From Pisolithus tinctorius (lineage: Eukaryota; Basidiomycota; Agaricomycetes; Boletales; Pisolithaceae): a DNA stretch of 64,000 bases. This document shows positions 22,269 through 32,200 of the stretch, in pieces. The position numbers and the translations under genes were made by a program. The DNA is taken from assembly GCA_024663395.1 (NCBI GenBank), contig JANFAH010000005.1, positions 124,001 through 188,000 on the forward strand, in the 5' to 3' direction. The notes beneath the pieces were generated by a model. The model was not told the DNA's origin, did not search any database, and saw nothing but the letters and a program-made list of their open reading frames with translations. The stretch's first letter is position 1. Every line of letters begins with the position of its first letter.

Positions 22269-23243
22269 GCCTTTCCTATCTGGCACACCATCCTATCGAT
22301 CCGTTCCCGTGGCGTCGCGCAGTATGGCTGTCCAAACCTGTTGCCCACAAAGGCTGACACCGGGCCCCGGAAGGTAGATTCAGCAACGTTGTTGACGTGA
22401 GTAGATACCCTAATTGGCATTGAAACGTCAAACTCTGTTCCGGAGGGCCGTCCCGCATTTCATAACCAGAGTTTCTTTCTGACGTCGGCGATCGTTACAT
22501 AAGTAGTACTCGACGGTTACGATATCATGGTTCAGTCGATCTCCTTGCGGCATGACCTTACAGAACGACCATGTAACTTATAGGTGTGTGAACCAGGCAT
22601 CAAGTCAGCGGCTGCAATCCCTCTCGATTATCAAGCACGTTCTTACGTGCTGGCGTGGAGCCTGATGTGTACTGCTTTTATAAGATTCAACCTCTGTGAT
22701 TTTACCATACAAAAAAAATCAAGAAATGGGACTTGGAAGGTCAGTACGGATTCTGTGTGCCTTTGGGTGATCTAGATTTACTACTGCGTCGAGTGTAACT
22801 AGCAGGGATACTTCCCGCGGAATTTGGCCAACGCCACTATAGCATGATCCGAGAAGTTCAGGAAATGTGAACTTTAAGCCACGCGCTTGACCCTTTCCCT
22901 GCAGGCTTGATTAACAGGTTGGTGACAAGATGGACTGCTGGGAACCCTCGGCCATTCAAGCAGCCGGCCCTGGGAGTTTCGAAATCGCGTGTTGCGGACG
23001 AAATTGTACGTGAATAGGTTGACAAGGGAAATATTTCGTGCCATTCATAAGAGGTATTCCGCCACCTGCCAATGGGTCAAGGGTTAGTAGGACTTCAGTG
23101 GAGATTATGCGTTCGTCAGCGACCCTGGATTCTAGTAAGACGCTTCGCTAGCTTGGAGTTGTTCAAAATGTCAAACCTGGACAGCTGGGTAGCGATCGCA
23201 AAATGACCCAAATAGGGGCAATACAGCGCTCCCTCGTCGGAGT
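22269..23243. other. Intergenic, ATP12 to NTAQ1
   Basis: Nearly 1 kb with no recognisable gene on either strand, only small open frames without supporting motifs. It presumably contains the ATP12 3' end and the NTAQ1 promoter. Confidence 0.5.
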
Positions 23244-26200
23244 ATGAGTGAGAATCTAATGCTACCCAACTTCGAAGACAACGTGTACACAAGTCAGTAT
23301 TGCGAAGAGAATATCTACCATCTCGCCCAGCGAATGCTGGCACAGCCGGACAGTGACAGCAGGTGGGATATCAATATTATCTTTGTATCCAATTTATCCA
23401 GGACGGTAACGCATCTCAATCCCGACGACTCTCTCTTGCCACAACTTTACTTACCTCAACAGGTCGCTCTATGGAACCAGCGGATAAGCTCGTCTAGAGA
23501 TACCGCAGTGATATGGGACTACCATGTTGTTCTAACGCTGCGCGGGGCCTTCGCTGTAAATCGAGATGACGAACAAGAAACTTGGATCTATGATCTGGAC
23601 ACTCGCCTTCCCGTGCCATGTCCTTGGGAAGGTACGTATAAACTCGACTGTGAAACGCTTCATCGCCTTCTGGCATGGGCTCAACCCGGATCTTATCTAC
23701 TGTATAGAATACGTGGAGCAAACTTTCCCCGGCCACGCGGACTTGCCAGAACAATTCCAAAGGTACGATCAACTACGGGAAAGCCGATTACCTTATCTCA
23801 GTGGAGACTCATCGTCCTCTGCAGTCTCTTCTATGGCGTAAAATCTGCACATTTATTTTTCGCGGCCGCACCGCCACACCACCGCGCCCATTCGGCCGCG
23901 TCGTTACTTGTCGCGGTCGCACAACCGCACTACCGCGCCCTCTCAACCGCGTCGTTACCTTCCGCAACCACGCCACCGCGCTCATTCGACCGCGTCATTA
24001 CTTTTCGCGGTCGCGCAACCGCACTACCGCGCCCTTTCAGCCGCGTCGTTACCTTCCGCAACCACACCACCGCGCCCTCTCAGCCGCGTCGTTACCCTCC
24101 GCAACCACACCACTCGACCGCATGTCGCTTTATATATATTATATATATATATAATATAACCATACTATGTGTATATTCGTATATGCCTACATAACATAAC
24201 AATCAATCCCTGCGCATTAATGATTGAATTTTGCATGAGGTATATAGAAACAACAATGATTGTATTGGCTAGTAAATTTACCAAGTGGTGGCGAACACGA
24301 ACACGAACATATCAATGAATGGTATCGTAGAAGTTATTCAAATCTCTGACAACTCCAATGAAAAAAAACTTCGCCGTCTCCTCCCGGACAAGCTGCATCC
24401 TTCATCTCCTCCATCAAGGGAGATCGACGAGGTGGAGAGTGAGATCGACGAAGTGAGGGAGACCGACGAGGGGAAGATGGCGGGGAGCGCGAGTCTTCGC
24501 GGTACTTGTCTCGCACGTAGTTGCGACCAAGTTCCCGAGTGTATTCCCCGTCGCGTCCATGTGGCCTGTAGTCGCGCGAGCCGTCCGGGCTCCGAGCCAG
24601 GCCCTGACTGTGACCTTTGCTGTAGTCTCTCCGTGGGGTAGGTGAGCGTCGGGAACGTCGTCGGGATGTCTTGTATTGGTGAACGGTATGGTAGTAGTTG
24701 TCGAATGCTTGTTCAATACACTCCATCCAGACGCGATTAAGCCGACTAAATCGTTCCCCAACAAGGCCGTAGAAGGTGGAGTAAGAGCGCTCTTGCGAGC
24801 AACACTCAATAATCATGTTGATGAGCTCGATCTAACCAACGGTCATGAGTATGATTTTGAAGTAATTAAAATAACGATACTCACCTCTTCTCCTTCCTTC
24901 GACTGGATCTTCAAGAGCTTGTGGACCGCTTCTTCGTAGTTGAGAGCGTTCATGATAGTAAGGTATATCATTCGTCGTAGATTGACCAAGTTCGTCCCCG
25001 TCCGATCCAATATACCTTCTCGTTCTTTGGCCGCCGAAGGGTCAAAATTATGACACAGGAGTGAAAGAGTCGCGTACCTTGCTCTTCTTCCTTGCTTGAC
25101 TCCTCTGGACCAGATTCATCGTCGGAGCCCTCTCCAAGAATCTCAGCTTTTATTGCTTTGTACTTTTCCTCGTTCTCCGTGTAATTGGGGTCGAACTTGA
25201 ATATATCTGCCCGAACGCTTCAAATACTAAAACTGGTAACAAACGACAGAAACTCACTGAGCCCTTCTTGCGCCTGCAACTCCTCTTCCTTTACGAGGTC
25301 CAACCCGTCTGGTATGATTGGGTTGTCCTTGTACTTGTCTTTCTGGACCTGCATAAGCACCTCTATCATATATTGTACGCGATGACTGATGGTCCCCTCG
25401 TTGAGAACATCACGGAAACGGTCGAAAACGAGCGCATTTGCTTTCGGAGAGTTTTCCGCCAGAAACGCGCCGACCTCACGCATGAATCCAACCGCAATCT
25501 CAATCGAGTCGTCCGTTCGGCGCTCAAGGAGGAAGATGAGGGTTTCAAGCGCAATAATCTCATGTGCGACAGCTTGATTGACGAGGTGAGCAATGAAAGT
25601 TGTCGAAGAATGACAAACGGTCTGTCCGGCATGACATCAACGATTCAAAACAGGCGGGAAAGAATTGCGACTTACTTTGTCGTTACGCTTGAACGCACGC
25701 CGAAACTGGCTTATGAGCCGGGTTAAGACGAGCTCTCCTACTTGAGGAAGTTTTGTGTTGATAATGGCCACCAGAGCGGCGAAAACAGGTGTAAAGGGTA
25801 AGCTGGACGCCTGTGCTTTCATGACGCTGCGGGCGAACGGTCCTCGACCTCGTATGAGGTTTTCTGAGAATGGTTCGGGAACGACCTGCTTGATGTCGGC
25901 GACGTTGACTCGGCTAACGATACCGGTGATCGATTTGCGCAGCGCGTCCCAGGATGACTGTAATCTTGACTTGACTAAACGTGGAGATGAAAAGTCGGTG
26001 GCCAGACAAGGATGATTATGTCAGCAACTAGTCGTCCATATGGCTACAGCGGCTCAAAGGTGGTTACTCACTGCTCATGCGCACCGCTCGCCTGGCCACC
26101 GACTTTTCATTTCAGCGTTTATGATAGTAAGATAATCTACTATGATTTTATTTGAAGTAAGTCTCGAGATGCGAGGCGTGGAGGCATTGGAAGGGGGGAG

Positions 26201-29200
26201 GGTAGCACGTGATTAGTAAGCAGCCACCAAGTGCAGATAAGATAGTACGAGGTGTAGTACTTCAGATCGCAATAGCACACTGCAGAATTACATATAATTT
26301 TGGTACTGTCCTCTAGTTAACACACAGGGCTCGAAGAATATGAATTTTTTGTGAAGAAATATGCAGTACTTGGATCACAATCTTGGTTATATGTGTAAAA
26401 TCAGCCTATGTTTTTTTCAGACTTATATAGCGGTAGAACTATTCTAATTTTTATACAAGAACCTGAATCTAATTTACCTGGTTCCGAATCTGCAAAAATA
26501 CTGGCAATCTGACTTGAATTGATTGAGATGTTCAGATTCTAAAATTTAGCCACTACATGTGTGTGATTTTGTTCGTTTAGCCGCGCCCTCAGTTTTAAAA
26601 ACGGCGGTAATTTGAAGGTCTCGAAGCACTATACATTGCGACAAACCCAAGTTACATTATAAGACGCTACATCTCTTTGTACAACGACTACGTAGGTATG
26701 ATTTTGTGGACAAGGCGATCTTTAACGCGAGTAATGAATTGATGAGAATGCGCAAGTGGTTTGTTCAGGTTCATTATATGTGAAAACATATGCCTCTTAC
26801 AATCCACACCGACCCGGCCAAATTGCAATCCTTTGAAGTGATCGATAGCTTCGTCCAAACGCCGCGGGTTCCTTCCATCAAGGAGGAGTCGCCCCATACC
26901 GTTCCACCACACCGCAGCCCAATCCTCGGCACACCCTTTGTGATCCTGACAGCTGCTAGAATGCACAATGGGAGGAAATTCTGCAGCGACCGTGCGGATG
27001 TACTCGTCCAAATGGGACCTGACATAGACATATGCGACGTAAGTATCCATCCCCATCCGGACACGGTGAGACTTCTTAATCTTCGTCAGCGGGACTTCGC
27101 AAAGCCTAGTGAAACCTCTTTCGAAGATGGCCCGAATCTTGTACTCGATGCCTAGATAAACGAGTTCGGAAGGGTGGAAGAAGTATGCTCTCTCGATGAC
27201 GCAAGAGGTGACGAAGCTGAGCATACGGGCGCTGCATTGGAAATGGCGGACGAATTCCAGCAAGTTCTTGAGGTCATCCAAGGAATATTTGGCGGAAGGA
27301 CGGGGACTAGAACGAGCGAATTCAGTAAGGGTCACCATCAGGGGAGTGCTCAGAGACTTACCACATGAACTTGAATTCGACGAACAAATCAAAAGTTTGC
27401 GCAGTCAAATTTTTTCCACCGAGAATAATTGGTTGCCCATCAACCTTCCCCTCCTGGCTGTCTGGCGCGTATTGGCCAAGCGAAAAGACGTCAGCGAAGA
27501 GTTTGGACTCGTTCACCAAGATGTCGTGATTGAGTTTGTACAGCGTATTCTCGACCCGGAAGATGAACGTGCCATTTTCGAAATAAAATTCAGGATGGCG
27601 GGTGACTGTCACTGGCGCTGATTCAGTCATGATTAAGGCGAAACGGCTGATGGAACAGTAAGGGAAATTATATATGTTATTGTTTATTTGTTGCCTTGTG
27701 TTCTCATACGTCCCACGTACTGTTACGTCGCGTTCCGGGGTTTGGGCTTCAAGCTCGAAGACCCATCCCATCGATGGCGACATCGCTTCCCAGTTCCATC
27801 CCTCAGCTGCCCGCAAATACCACACCGTGGCCAGAAAACCTCATCGTGGCGGTCGATTCGCTCTCCGACATTTATCGGCGTGCTTTCCAAGTGTGGACCC
27901 AAGAGGACAACGATCTAATTCGCCTCGAGTGTCATCTCGGCTTTCTGGAAGGAAACGCGATACATCTCCTTACAGCGATTGAAGAAGACCGTGTGGGCGC
28001 TGACCTGTCCGAGTGGCTCTCGGACGCCACTGAGCTAGTTGGGAAGCTGTATGCAGCGATTGCACGCTATCGAGACAGCATGAGGACTTGGTGAGCAAAC
28101 TTAAAAAAATGGTTCTCAACGCTATCAGCCTAACATACACATTCTTCATGCTTAGTGTTGATGAGAACGTAGAAATACCAAAGCCGGTAGCAGAAGTTCA
28201 CACCGGTTTACGAGGACGGCCGAGGAAGGTCATCGACATCGACATTCTCAAGGAGGTCGTTTCAAACTCAAGACACATTCGTTCCACTGAACTCGCGCGC
28301 CTTCTCGGAATCCATCGAAATACTCTGCGCCTTTACATGAGGTGCCACGGCATTGAGCGTACGTACACTGAGATTAGCGATGCGGACCTCGACAATCTCG
28401 TCAAGGAATTTAAGAAGAGACGGCCGGAATCTGGACTTCGTTATATCATTGGGTTCATGCGGGCACAGGGGGTTCGCGTTCAGTATCGCCGTGTAATCCA
28501 GTCGCTTTCTAGGGTGGATCGCCTCGGTCAAGCTTTACGAGACCGCCGTACGAAGACCAGGCGCAAGTATCATGTCAAGCGGCCCAATGCGTTATGGCAC
28601 ATGGACGGTCACCACAAATTGATTCGGTGGGGGATCGTTATCCATGGATTCATCGATGGGTTTTGCCGCACGGTACGTTTATCAGTCGTCTAACTCGCAA
28701 CATTCGTTGATTCATTCTTAGGTTACTGCGATACGTGCTAGCGATAATAATCGGTCGGCGACCGTCCTTCACGTATTTAAACAAGCGATTGAAGAATATA
28801 GTATGCCTTCCCGCGTACGTGGAGACCGCGGTGGTGAGAACCTTGACGTCGCAACCTACGTCATTATGAAGAATGGCCACCACTGAGGCTCGTTTATCTG
28901 GGGAACGTAAGTATATTTTACATTATTTTTGTATTCGTTGTTGCTAATCACACATGAATCTAGATCAACTCGAAATTGTCGTATTGAGCGTTTGTGGGTC
29001 GAAGTCGGATCTCAGTTCGCCAGACGCTGGCGCGCATTCTTCACTCGGCTTGAACGTATTCACTTGCTTGATGTCGACAACGCGTCGCATATCTGGTTAC
29101 TCCATATACTTTTCCTCGACGATATCAATCACGATTGTCAGGTGTTTCGAGAGGAGTGGAATTGCCACCCGATAGGTGGCCCAAGTGCTAACAACAAGAG

Positions 29201-32200
29201 TCCCAAGGTAAGATTTCAGTTTCGTTAGTTTACTACTCTACTCATTCCGTGATATACATATACAAGGATATGCGCCTGTTAGGTCAAATCAAGTTCGGCG
29301 TATACCAAGATCGTGAAGATCGTGAAGAGCTTGAGGGACTTGGCCTCGCTGACGATGAAGTAACGGATACGGCCGATGTGATCGCACGTCAACAGCAAGT
29401 ACATATTAACCATGAAGCCGTGCACGTACCCTCGCTTCGAAATCCGTTTAGGAGTGATGAAGACGAGCTAATCTTTTTCAGTGGTCTTCGTGAGGTAATT
29501 GCTCAGGACATCACACCAGAGAATTTCGGGTTGACGCCAGCGGAGTGGGGCTCGGACGGATATCCGACAATTGAAACTATTCGCATTGGTCGACGTGCGG
29601 CCAAAGACGTAGACATTTCGTTAGCGGACTCAATTTGGTATTCCCGGGCATGTCTATGGTGCCAGGCTCTATCCACGTTGTCATATTACTTACTAAGTCT
29701 TAAACTTTGATCTAGTATGCTGGCACCAATTATAAATTGCACGGTGCTCTGTTCGTCTGTCTTTACGCCCCGTTTGTTCTTGCCCGTATCGATGCCAGCC
29801 AGGGAGGGCCTCTGCCGGGGCGGTGATGGTACTTGCGACTGTGAAGTGTTCTTCCCCCAAAAAGACAACGCCGCCCACTGCTTGGAATGTCTGCATGGGA
29901 TAAGCAAGCATCGCAACGCTGATGGTACCTCGGTTGCCATCCAACCTCACCCTGCCGTATCCGGCTCGTCAAATGTGGCGAGAATATTCGAAGGCCTTGC
30001 TAACAAACGTCCCACCGGCTTGTCTCAGGTTGCTCAACTGGATCCCCGTCGCGAGGCGCTAGCAACGAAAACTTCAAAGCTAGTCCAGAAGGCAACTTCT
30101 ACTACCGAGCGCAAGGCAAGTATTTCCAGTGGTACGTCTGGATCGTTCAGATTAAGTATTCTATTCTAGGTGTCATCTCAGAGGCACGCAAGTAGTCAGA
30201 AATTTCATGTCGGTTCCGTCGCCATCGTAACTTGTGGATTGGATGTAAGTCTGTTTCTTCATTCCAATGTGCAGATTCTTACATCGCAAATCGAAATCAA
30301 GGCTAATGGTCGGTTGCTGAAAGACCCCTTACCCCTACCGCTTGCAGATAGGAAGATATTCATCCAGCAGCTCGAAGATCATGGATGTTACCTGCAACAA
30401 ACGATCGAAATTGACACATCGTGGTCCCATGACGACGTCACCACCCATCTTCGTTCTTGGTTCCCCAAAGTCTTCGAACATTTCGATGCGCGTCGTGAGC
30501 AGGCTAATACCGCTTCCCAGACTCAACCTGACTGGCAACTTCTCGTTCCGAATAATGGGAAACTCGAGCTCTCCACAGCGGTCCGCCCAAACGGTATTGT
30601 TCTTGCTCGTTTCAAGGGACGTCAGAAGGCAAGTATAGCCGATAGTAACTTGTGGTTTGGTACGTCACTACGGCGCGATAGTTGCGATCACTCATATTTT
30701 TTGAACAGTTACCCGAAACCCGGTTCCACTTGCTGTTTTCAACAAGTGGAAAGTTGAGTCGGACATTGTGGGAACGGACATCGAGGCGATGAGTGACGAG
30801 GGGAGTGAAGTGATTGAACTCTCGAGCTCTGTCGCTGAGCTCAACATCAACGCCGTGGCTGAGACAGGTAGCGATTTCCAGCGCTATCATCTTTACTAAC
30901 AGAATTAATGGGTTTTCTTCGAGTAGGCAAGAGGTCTCGCCCGATCACCGTCTTATCCTCCCCCGAGGCGACGGATCGGCGGTCCTTCCGCAAGAAACGC
31001 AAGGATCGTAAGTCATGTGTTCCCAGCTCTATGACGACATGCTAACTGAGCAATATCTACAGTTAACGCAAACGCACTGCCCACCTGGCCTTGTCAACCT
31101 GCGGGGCCCATTTCTGGGCCGGTGATGGTGAAAGAGCTCCTGTCTGACAGCGATGACAACACCCCGCCCAACCCATGGTCCGCTCAATTCGATCAAACGA
31201 CGTTGCTGAAGGATGATGATGTCTCCGATATTGATCTGTGAACTTGCCAACCATTCCCTCTCCCCTCCCCGCTCACTATACGTCTGTCCCTAACAGTAGA
31301 CTGATGTTCGTAATGCTTCATTCAATGTGATTTGTGATTTCCAGCGATAACGTCTGCCCAAACGTGTCAAACGACTAACATTGATATGAGATCACCTTGT
31401 CATCGAAGACGAAGACATTCGTGTTCGCCACCACTTGGTAAATTTACTAGCCAATACAATCATTGTTGTTTCTATATACCTCATGCAAAATTCAATCATT
31501 AATGCGCAGGGATTGATTGTTATGTTATGTAGGCATATACGAATATACACATAGTATGGTTATATTATATATATATAATATATATAAAGCGACATGCGGT
31601 CGAGTGGTGTGGTTGCGGAGGGTAACGACGCGGCTGAGAGGGCGCGGTGGTGTGGTTGCGGAAGGTAACGACGCGGCTGAAAGGGCGCGGTAGTGCGGTT
31701 GCGCGACCGCGAAAAGTAATGACGCGGTCGAATGAGCGCGGTGGCGTGGTTGCGGAAGGTAACGACGCGGTTGAGAGGGCGCGGTAGTGCGGTTGTGCGA
31801 CCGCGACAAGTAACGACGCGGCCGAATGGGCGCGGTGGTGTGGCGGTGCGGCCGCGAAAAATAAATGTGCAGATTTTACGCCATACTCTTCAGGGTCGTT
31901 CCTTGTAAGGTTTACCTGGACAGCTTTGCGTCCGATAGATCGCACATGGTAACGCAAACACTGATCGTCCTTGGTATCCTCACTCTCCAATGAAATTTCT
32001 AGGTCGTTTTCGATCCTTCTCACGGACCCCATTATGTTGCAGTGCCTCCTTCATACCCTTGTATCTGTGGACCCTTGGCAGCTGCGCAGGGTGTCAGCCA
32101 CAATTTGATGAGTGACTTCGTTTGTATGGGTGGCGACGTCAATGGATTTGGCACCGTGCTTGATTTTGCATCATTTAAAGATTGGTGTTCAGGCAGTAAA

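Follow-up and report, generated by a model that had tools for sequence, protein, structure and literature searches.

We analyzed a stretch of 64,000 nucleotides from the basidiomycete Pisolithus tinctorius (assembly GCA_024663395.1, contig JANFAH010000005.1, positions 124,001 to 188,000; hereafter the window), in which positions 23832..31885 are occupied by a complete transposon of 8,054 bp that appears to be of the IS3EU type. Its structure can be read directly. The left terminal inverted repeat (TIR; 23832..24301, plus strand, 470 bp) starts with TATGGCGTAAAATCTGCACATTTAT and aligns to the right TIR (31418..31885, minus strand, 468 bp) with 0 mismatches and a single 2-bp gap within an AT microsatellite. 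The termini read TATGG...CCATA, and a target site duplication, CTCTTC, is found outside both of them, at 23826..23831 and 31886..31891. A preliminary description of this DNA had reported TIRs of about 470 bp that were identical save for a 2-bp microsatellite difference, ends of the form TAT...ATA and the 6-bp duplication CTCTTC, all of which is confirmed here. From left to right, the element encloses a fragment of the host gene CWC22, a BTB-like gene, a DDE integrase gene and a gene for a Cys-rich protein.

The interrupted host gene is NTAQ1, encoding N-terminal glutamine amidase (Nt_Gln_amidase PF09764, E 3e-25). Its 5' part lies at 23193..23831 on the plus strand and the gene continues from 31892; when the flanks are joined, they read the NTAQ1 run SLFRVVPCKVYLDSFASDRSHM. 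On this reading, and given the inferred acceptor, the duplication would correspond to nucleotides 2-7 of an NTAQ1 coding exon, the insertion lying 1 nt inside the exon. On the same reading we reject an insertion in an NTAQ1 intron, which the preliminary description had taken as the site.

The genome searched comprises 92.5 Mb in 221 contigs (designated by C and a number; the window lies in C5). Because the searches scored the best candidates only, the genome-wide counts given below are lower bounds. A search with the left TIR, as the preliminary description had proposed, followed by comparison of whole elements, gave five more full-length copies of this family, named F1, besides the copy in the window (A, on C5): B on C28, C on C30, D on C2, E on C14 and F on C26. 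Older, broken copies were found on C33, C11, C6, C13 and C23. Over the entire 8.05 kb, with the captured piece counted in, the six full copies are 0.1-0.9% apart; every one is bordered by a perfect 6-bp duplication, and no two share the same one. The joined flanks of copy A match C62:191153-191652 without interruption; this empty locus is 98.3-98.7% identical to both flanks over 1.75 kb each and has one CTCTTC. Six copies with six different duplications, together with the empty site, lead us to conclude that copy A is a recent insertion of a whole element and that this TIR transposon moved as an 8-kb unit, as previously claimed.

The DDE integrase gene (PF24764; 27774..29710, plus strand) has five exons and encodes 568 amino acids in intact copies. 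The spliced integrase of copy B matches Pfam rva_4 (PF24764, E 6e-62) and PF00665 (E 1.6e-8), and its catalytic residues D256, D313 and E348 are spaced by 56 and 34; neither an HHCC nor a CxxC pattern was found in residues 1-255. Four of the six full copies (B, D, E and F) have an unbroken reading frame, and copy C has frame shifts in the integrase and also in the BTB-like gene. The rve-type integrase proposed earlier therefore stands as a DDE integrase, with the correction that an in-frame TGA interrupts exon 3 of copy A; because of this TGA, copy A probably depends on integrase supplied by another copy. IS3EU elements, for which the literature is cited here from excerpts, are defined by TA..TA ends and usually have 6-bp duplications (PMC10045372). 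The element in the window shares with them the 6-bp duplication, the TA..TA termini, the integrase kind of DDE enzyme, the lack of HHCC and a first catalytic D (residue 256) inside the IS3EU range of 100-300 residues from the N terminus. Termini, duplication and integrase thus fit IS3EU, which supports the earlier IS3EU-like assignment.

The BTB-like gene (26688..27630, minus strand; exons 27362-27630 and 26688-27306, 295 amino acids) is tightly associated with the integrase. The genome gave 40 matches to it, which take in the many copies of F1 and of a sister family, F2, and 57 to the integrase. Of the 40, 34 have an integrase match no more than 6 kb away, and 32 are arranged head-to-head with it, that is, divergently; two, on C6 and C1, are near an integrase yet not divergent. 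The pairing persists where copies share only about 24-41% identity. Between F1 and F2, the ratio of nonsynonymous to synonymous substitution rates (dN/dS) is 0.17 and 0.34 in two stretches of the BTB-like gene, 0.11-0.20 in five stretches of the integrase and 0.10, 0.33 and 0.06 in three aligned stretches of the Cys-rich gene, with CpG changes pooled with other changes. As controls, six wrong frames inside the genes gave 0.94-2.8 and frames through the non-coding TIR 0.52-0.54. Judged from these ratios, the BTB-like gene is under purifying selection, and because it is also paired with the integrase across divergent families we regard it as a core gene of these elements. The preliminary description had counted two host-type cargo genes; genome-wide linkage to the integrase and constraint lead us to reject the BTB-like gene as host cargo, and the CWC22 piece alone is host-derived.

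It is less probable, though still worth weighing, that a single ancient capture brought a BTB gene from the host into the element, where it was then kept as useful cargo. BTB proteins are common in fungi, and 6 of the 40 matches have no integrase match within 6 kb; these may represent host genes or element remnants. However, the linkage and the head-to-head order extend across very divergent families, which would place any such capture before the whole group, and the origin of the gene is a question separate from its present role as a core gene.

The name itself is used with caution. Pfam gave no match for the F1 protein, and the homologue from a sister family (exons joined by eye) matches PF00651 at E 0.056, below the cut-off. 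A profile made from three sequences and compared with the PDB gave porin F first (E 0.24), then the Kaiso BTB domain (E 0.26 and 0.29); searched by itself, the protein matched nothing but CPS2A (E 0.02). Two AlphaFold models of exon 1 are of low confidence (mean pLDDT 40 and 47); a fold search of the PDB with the second of these low-confidence models gave no match at E <=0.001, and no BTB structure was among the 50 matches listed of 574. The PF00651 match and the two Kaiso matches favor the name, and the other searches and the models lend it no support. Because the label is weak, we write "BTB-like".

The Cys-rich accessory protein (29714..31241, plus strand; exon borders provisional), also noticed earlier, is a conserved core gene product with at least 31 matches in the genome, among them F1, F2 and F3 elements, F3 being a second sister family.

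The captured CWC22 fragment (24417..25974, minus strand) comprises MIF4G (E 1.2e-6, narrowly short of the curated threshold), part of MA3 (E 8e-9) and an RS tail, with introns kept. Three collinear blocks of it align at 93-95% DNA identity with the host gene at both L041 and L042, confirming the partial host CWC22 gene of the preliminary description as a truncated fragment; relative to the host gene it has internal gaps of about 529 bp and 24 bp, and the N-terminal part and part of MA3 are missing. Host CWC22 is still in place on C46 and C5, the two places being 96% identical over 3,953 bp. In comparisons within F1 and with the host gene, we counted CpG transitions separately because C-to-T at CpG dominates the differences between copies. 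Non-CpG divergence is 2.7-3.5% between the piece and the host and 2.2% between the two host copies; since these values are close, the capture is, by this measure, little older than variation within the species.

Within the element lineage, the captured piece drifts. When copy A is compared with the old copy on C11, non-CpG synonymous to nonsynonymous changes are 21:9 in the integrase, 14:1 in the BTB-like gene and 4:11 in the CWC22 piece; between copy A and the old C6 copy, they are 21:17, 14:5 and 3:12, respectively. For the piece, 914 (C11) and 900 (C6) of 1,155 coding bases were compared, and neutrality predicts 72% nonsynonymous changes. The difference between the piece and the two core genes taken together is significant in both cases (4:11 vs 35:10, Fisher p 0.001; 3:12 vs 35:22, p 0.008), so that, on these counts, the piece fits neutrality while the integrase and the BTB-like gene depart from it. 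The C11 and C6 copies also have in common a deletion of about 337 bp within the piece, and C13 and C23 end at the same point on one side. Damage to the piece therefore did not stop elements from spreading.

Three points weigh against the passenger reading. The C11 and C6 comparisons have the branch leading to A in common and so do not count as independent; the drift test covers the CWC22 piece only; and copy A compared with the two host CWC22 copies shows non-CpG synonymous to nonsynonymous changes of 20:7 and 26:8, which, taken by itself, would suggest constraint on the cargo. As the comparisons within the element show no such excess of synonymous changes, we read it as host-gene variation that preceded the capture, and constraint deduced from the host comparison alone was not accepted after the within-element test. 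The CWC22 piece thus seems to be a passenger with no visible constraint.

That the piece is functional, a truncated MIF4G/part-MA3/RS protein or an antisense or small RNA disturbing host splicing or silencing to the benefit of the element, is improbable. The four CWC22 exon stretches are indeed open in A, B, E and F, the synonymous excess against the host gene would agree with such a role, and the three families that could be read each retain one captured host piece. Nevertheless, the ratios within the element lineage are neutral, the piece is disrupted by shifts or stops in copies C and D, the internal deletion is shared by C11 and C6, and the fragment is without its N-terminal region and part of MA3. 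Moreover, the pieces captured by the sister families, from squalene epoxidase and a myosin, share no theme with CWC22.

CWC22 pieces are also found in a second multi-copy repeat, at L043 (C23:1015500-1018500), C2:1658289, C124:49014, C10:741856, C2:5507533, C92:102328, C33:505615 and C8:29517. In the one repeat copy read (L043), these pieces occur in both orientations and are 75-87% identical to the host gene. The terminal-motif search listed no IS3EU end within 10 kb of these places. Capture of CWC22 thus seems to have happened repeatedly.

Captured pieces were found in all three families that could be read (F1, F2 and F3). The F3 element on C44 (7,683 bp, 271-bp TIR, duplication CTGGCG) has a piece of squalene epoxidase (PF08491, E 1e-25), which aligns with the host gene as one contiguous block of 1,731 columns at 94.2-94.3% identity; the same sequence is present in two F3 copies on C6 and as pieces on C17 and C22. 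Host squalene epoxidase is in place on C48 and C8, 98.9% identical over 3,486 bp. The F2 element (8,652 bp, 1,310-bp TIR) is represented by copies M, N, O and P, where M, O and P are the same element as N plus nested inserts, and it has a myosin motor fragment (PF00063, E 5e-39) with blocks 89-95% identical to the host donor (C86, C18). The captured sequence lies between the left TIR and the BTB-like gene in F1, between the BTB-like gene and the integrase in F3, and in F2 it starts past the accessory gene and extends into the right TIR. These are three different places in the element, and we take the captures as independent. We infer that the squalene epoxidase and myosin pieces are passengers as well. 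In further families, at C42, C3, C1 (1.30 Mb) and C6 (65 kb), BTB-like and integrase matches are about 1.0-1.1 kb apart, and therefore leave no room for a large piece between those genes.

In F2, part of the captured myosin sequence is present in both TIRs. The right arms of N, M and P are separated from one another by 0-1 non-CpG changes and from the left arms by 8-17, while the left arms differ among themselves by 1-8 (the left arm of O aligned badly). Ongoing homogenization of the two F2 TIRs is not supported by this distance between right and left arms.

Host CWC22 and host squalene epoxidase are each found at two near-identical places, from which we conclude that both haplotypes of a dikaryon are most likely represented in the assembly, and copy A would then be a live insertion interrupting NTAQ1, most likely in one haplotype only. 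We tested 12 sites with joined flanks and found one empty counterpart each for A, C, E, F and F3, at 98-99% identity. Element N (C22, flanks L019) is inserted inside a dispersed repeat, whose empty copies occupy 36 places at 95-97% among the matches listed (best 40 of 1,747), and the site of D lies within a repeat having empty copies at 81-95% identity. Perfect 6-bp duplications border 13 of the 14 elements with both ends read, namely the six full F1 copies, G (an F1 copy on C2 with a nested insert), M-P, the F3 element and the old C11 copy. What speaks against movement as a unit throughout is that the duplications of an old pair, K on C6, do not match, that no empty site for B and G was present among the best 40 of 49 candidates, and that M, O and P could not be judged. 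An assembly that most likely has two haplotypes should contain a certain amount of duplicated sequence, but the reading of repeats and duplicates as segmental duplications or assembly artefacts has practically no chance of being right, since flanks and 6-bp duplications differ at each copy and it is refuted by empty sites with a single target copy.

Taken together, this is very probably a recently active cut-and-paste transposon of the IS3EU kind, with the integrase, BTB-like and Cys-rich genes as its core, with host genes captured at the DNA level and with the CWC22 piece as a passenger. In this model, the DDE integrase would cut at the TATGG...CCATA ends and join them to target strands 6 bp apart. 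The core set consists of the integrase, the divergently transcribed BTB-like protein and the Cys-rich accessory protein, and each family read has copied a different housekeeping-gene piece at the DNA level, introns included, possibly by template switching during repair of the gap left after excision. Such capture in gap repair has been proposed for plant Pack elements. The F2 TIR may have grown in a single event, preceding the spread of the family, in which the left end received a copy of the right. More tentatively, and with somewhat less than even confidence, we suggest that repeated gene capture is inherent in these IS3EU elements, that capture can feed TIR growth, and that the BTB-like protein is an essential partner of the integrase, possibly recruiting a host ubiquitin ligase or chromatin factors.

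Several of these features are known from IS3EU/GingerRoot elements, which also have 6-bp duplications, TA..TA ends fitting TAYGG..CCRTA, TIRs of more than 30 bp, no HHCC, a first D within residues 100-300 and an extra gene opposite to the transposase (PMC10045372; PMC12730594). IS3EU families of rusts have TAYGG..CCRTA ends and TET/JBP and alpha-kinase genes, and a TET-bearing family is described in a truffle (Kojima, 2025; PMC12730594). Unlike in these excerpts, where the extra genes are TET/JBP and alpha-kinase, the elements described here have BTB-like and Cys-rich genes and captured pieces of host housekeeping genes, and their TIRs measure 271, 470 and 1,310 bp. An IS3EU-related element of Zymoseptoria, Styx, is similar in its DDE transposase, its 6-bp duplications (used in the search there), its added coding sequences and its recent activity, but its host is an ascomycete and the excerpt leaves the host donor genes unnamed (PMC10853768). 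The earlier statement that large cargo-carrying fungal IS3EU elements are not described was therefore too strong, as members with extra genes appear in excerpts of both PMC12730594 and PMC10853768. A word search for a BTB protein gave 0 matches in these two papers, and the excerpts of the three IS3EU descriptions (PMC10045372, PMC12730594, PMC10853768) contain neither a BTB protein nor captured fragments of named housekeeping genes.

Outside IS3EU, the captured CWC22, squalene epoxidase and myosin motor fragments resemble those of the plant Pack-MULE and Pack-TYPE transposons, in which intron-bearing host-gene fragments, captured at the DNA level between TIRs, spread by transposition. Pack elements are mostly non-autonomous and without a transposase gene, whereas here a transposase gene stands beside the captured piece and is intact in four of the six full F1 copies. 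Gene-capturing Helitrons of mushrooms and Starships of Pezizomycotina are likewise large, cargo-carrying mobile elements of fungi. They use rolling-circle or tyrosine-recombinase enzymes, and Starships have a tyrosine recombinase as first gene and no long TIRs; the element in the window has a DDE integrase and 470-bp TIRs, although no search was aimed at a tyrosine recombinase. Compared with the IS3EU excerpts, two features look new: the elements have captured fragments of housekeeping genes several times while keeping an intact transposase gene, and one TIR has grown over such a fragment.

Gene capture by a transposase-bearing DDE transposon can thus be traced in one fungal assembly through donors, junctions, young and old copies and empty sites, and linkage and selection allow true cargo to be told from core genes. 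The BTB-like protein becomes a candidate second core protein for IS3EU elements, and F2 suggests one route by which long TIRs can arise.

Substitutions are exclusively transitions in all 15 pairwise comparisons of the six full F1 copies, and C-to-T at CpG accounts for 131 of the 139 changes specific to one copy. The divergence between copies thus seems to stem almost entirely from decay of methylated CpG; it fits deamination and does not require a process like repeat-induced point mutation. An excerpt on fungal IS3EU elements states that hypermutation was not detected in Agaricomycotina (PMC12730594).

Two base pairs past the right CWC22 capture junction starts a 35-bp imperfect inverted repeat (86%; 25976..26121, arms 25976-26010 and 26087-26121), a stretch retained in the five older F1 copies that have sequence to compare. 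A scan of the window against Rfam at gathering scores gave no match. A 25-bp terminal motif of the element occurs 68 times in the genome (<=3 mismatches), as against 0 for a backwards control, and is therefore not a matter of chance. Inverted terminal motifs 33-62 kb apart were observed at C22:534177-595965, C3:893970-952911, C16:982209-1026212, C47:219737-255123, C13:223800-257016 and C11:276199-309175. The pair on C11, bordered by a perfect duplication, belongs to a single element enlarged by a nested insert, and the C16 and C47 pairs have F2-like captured myosin sequence inside both ends.

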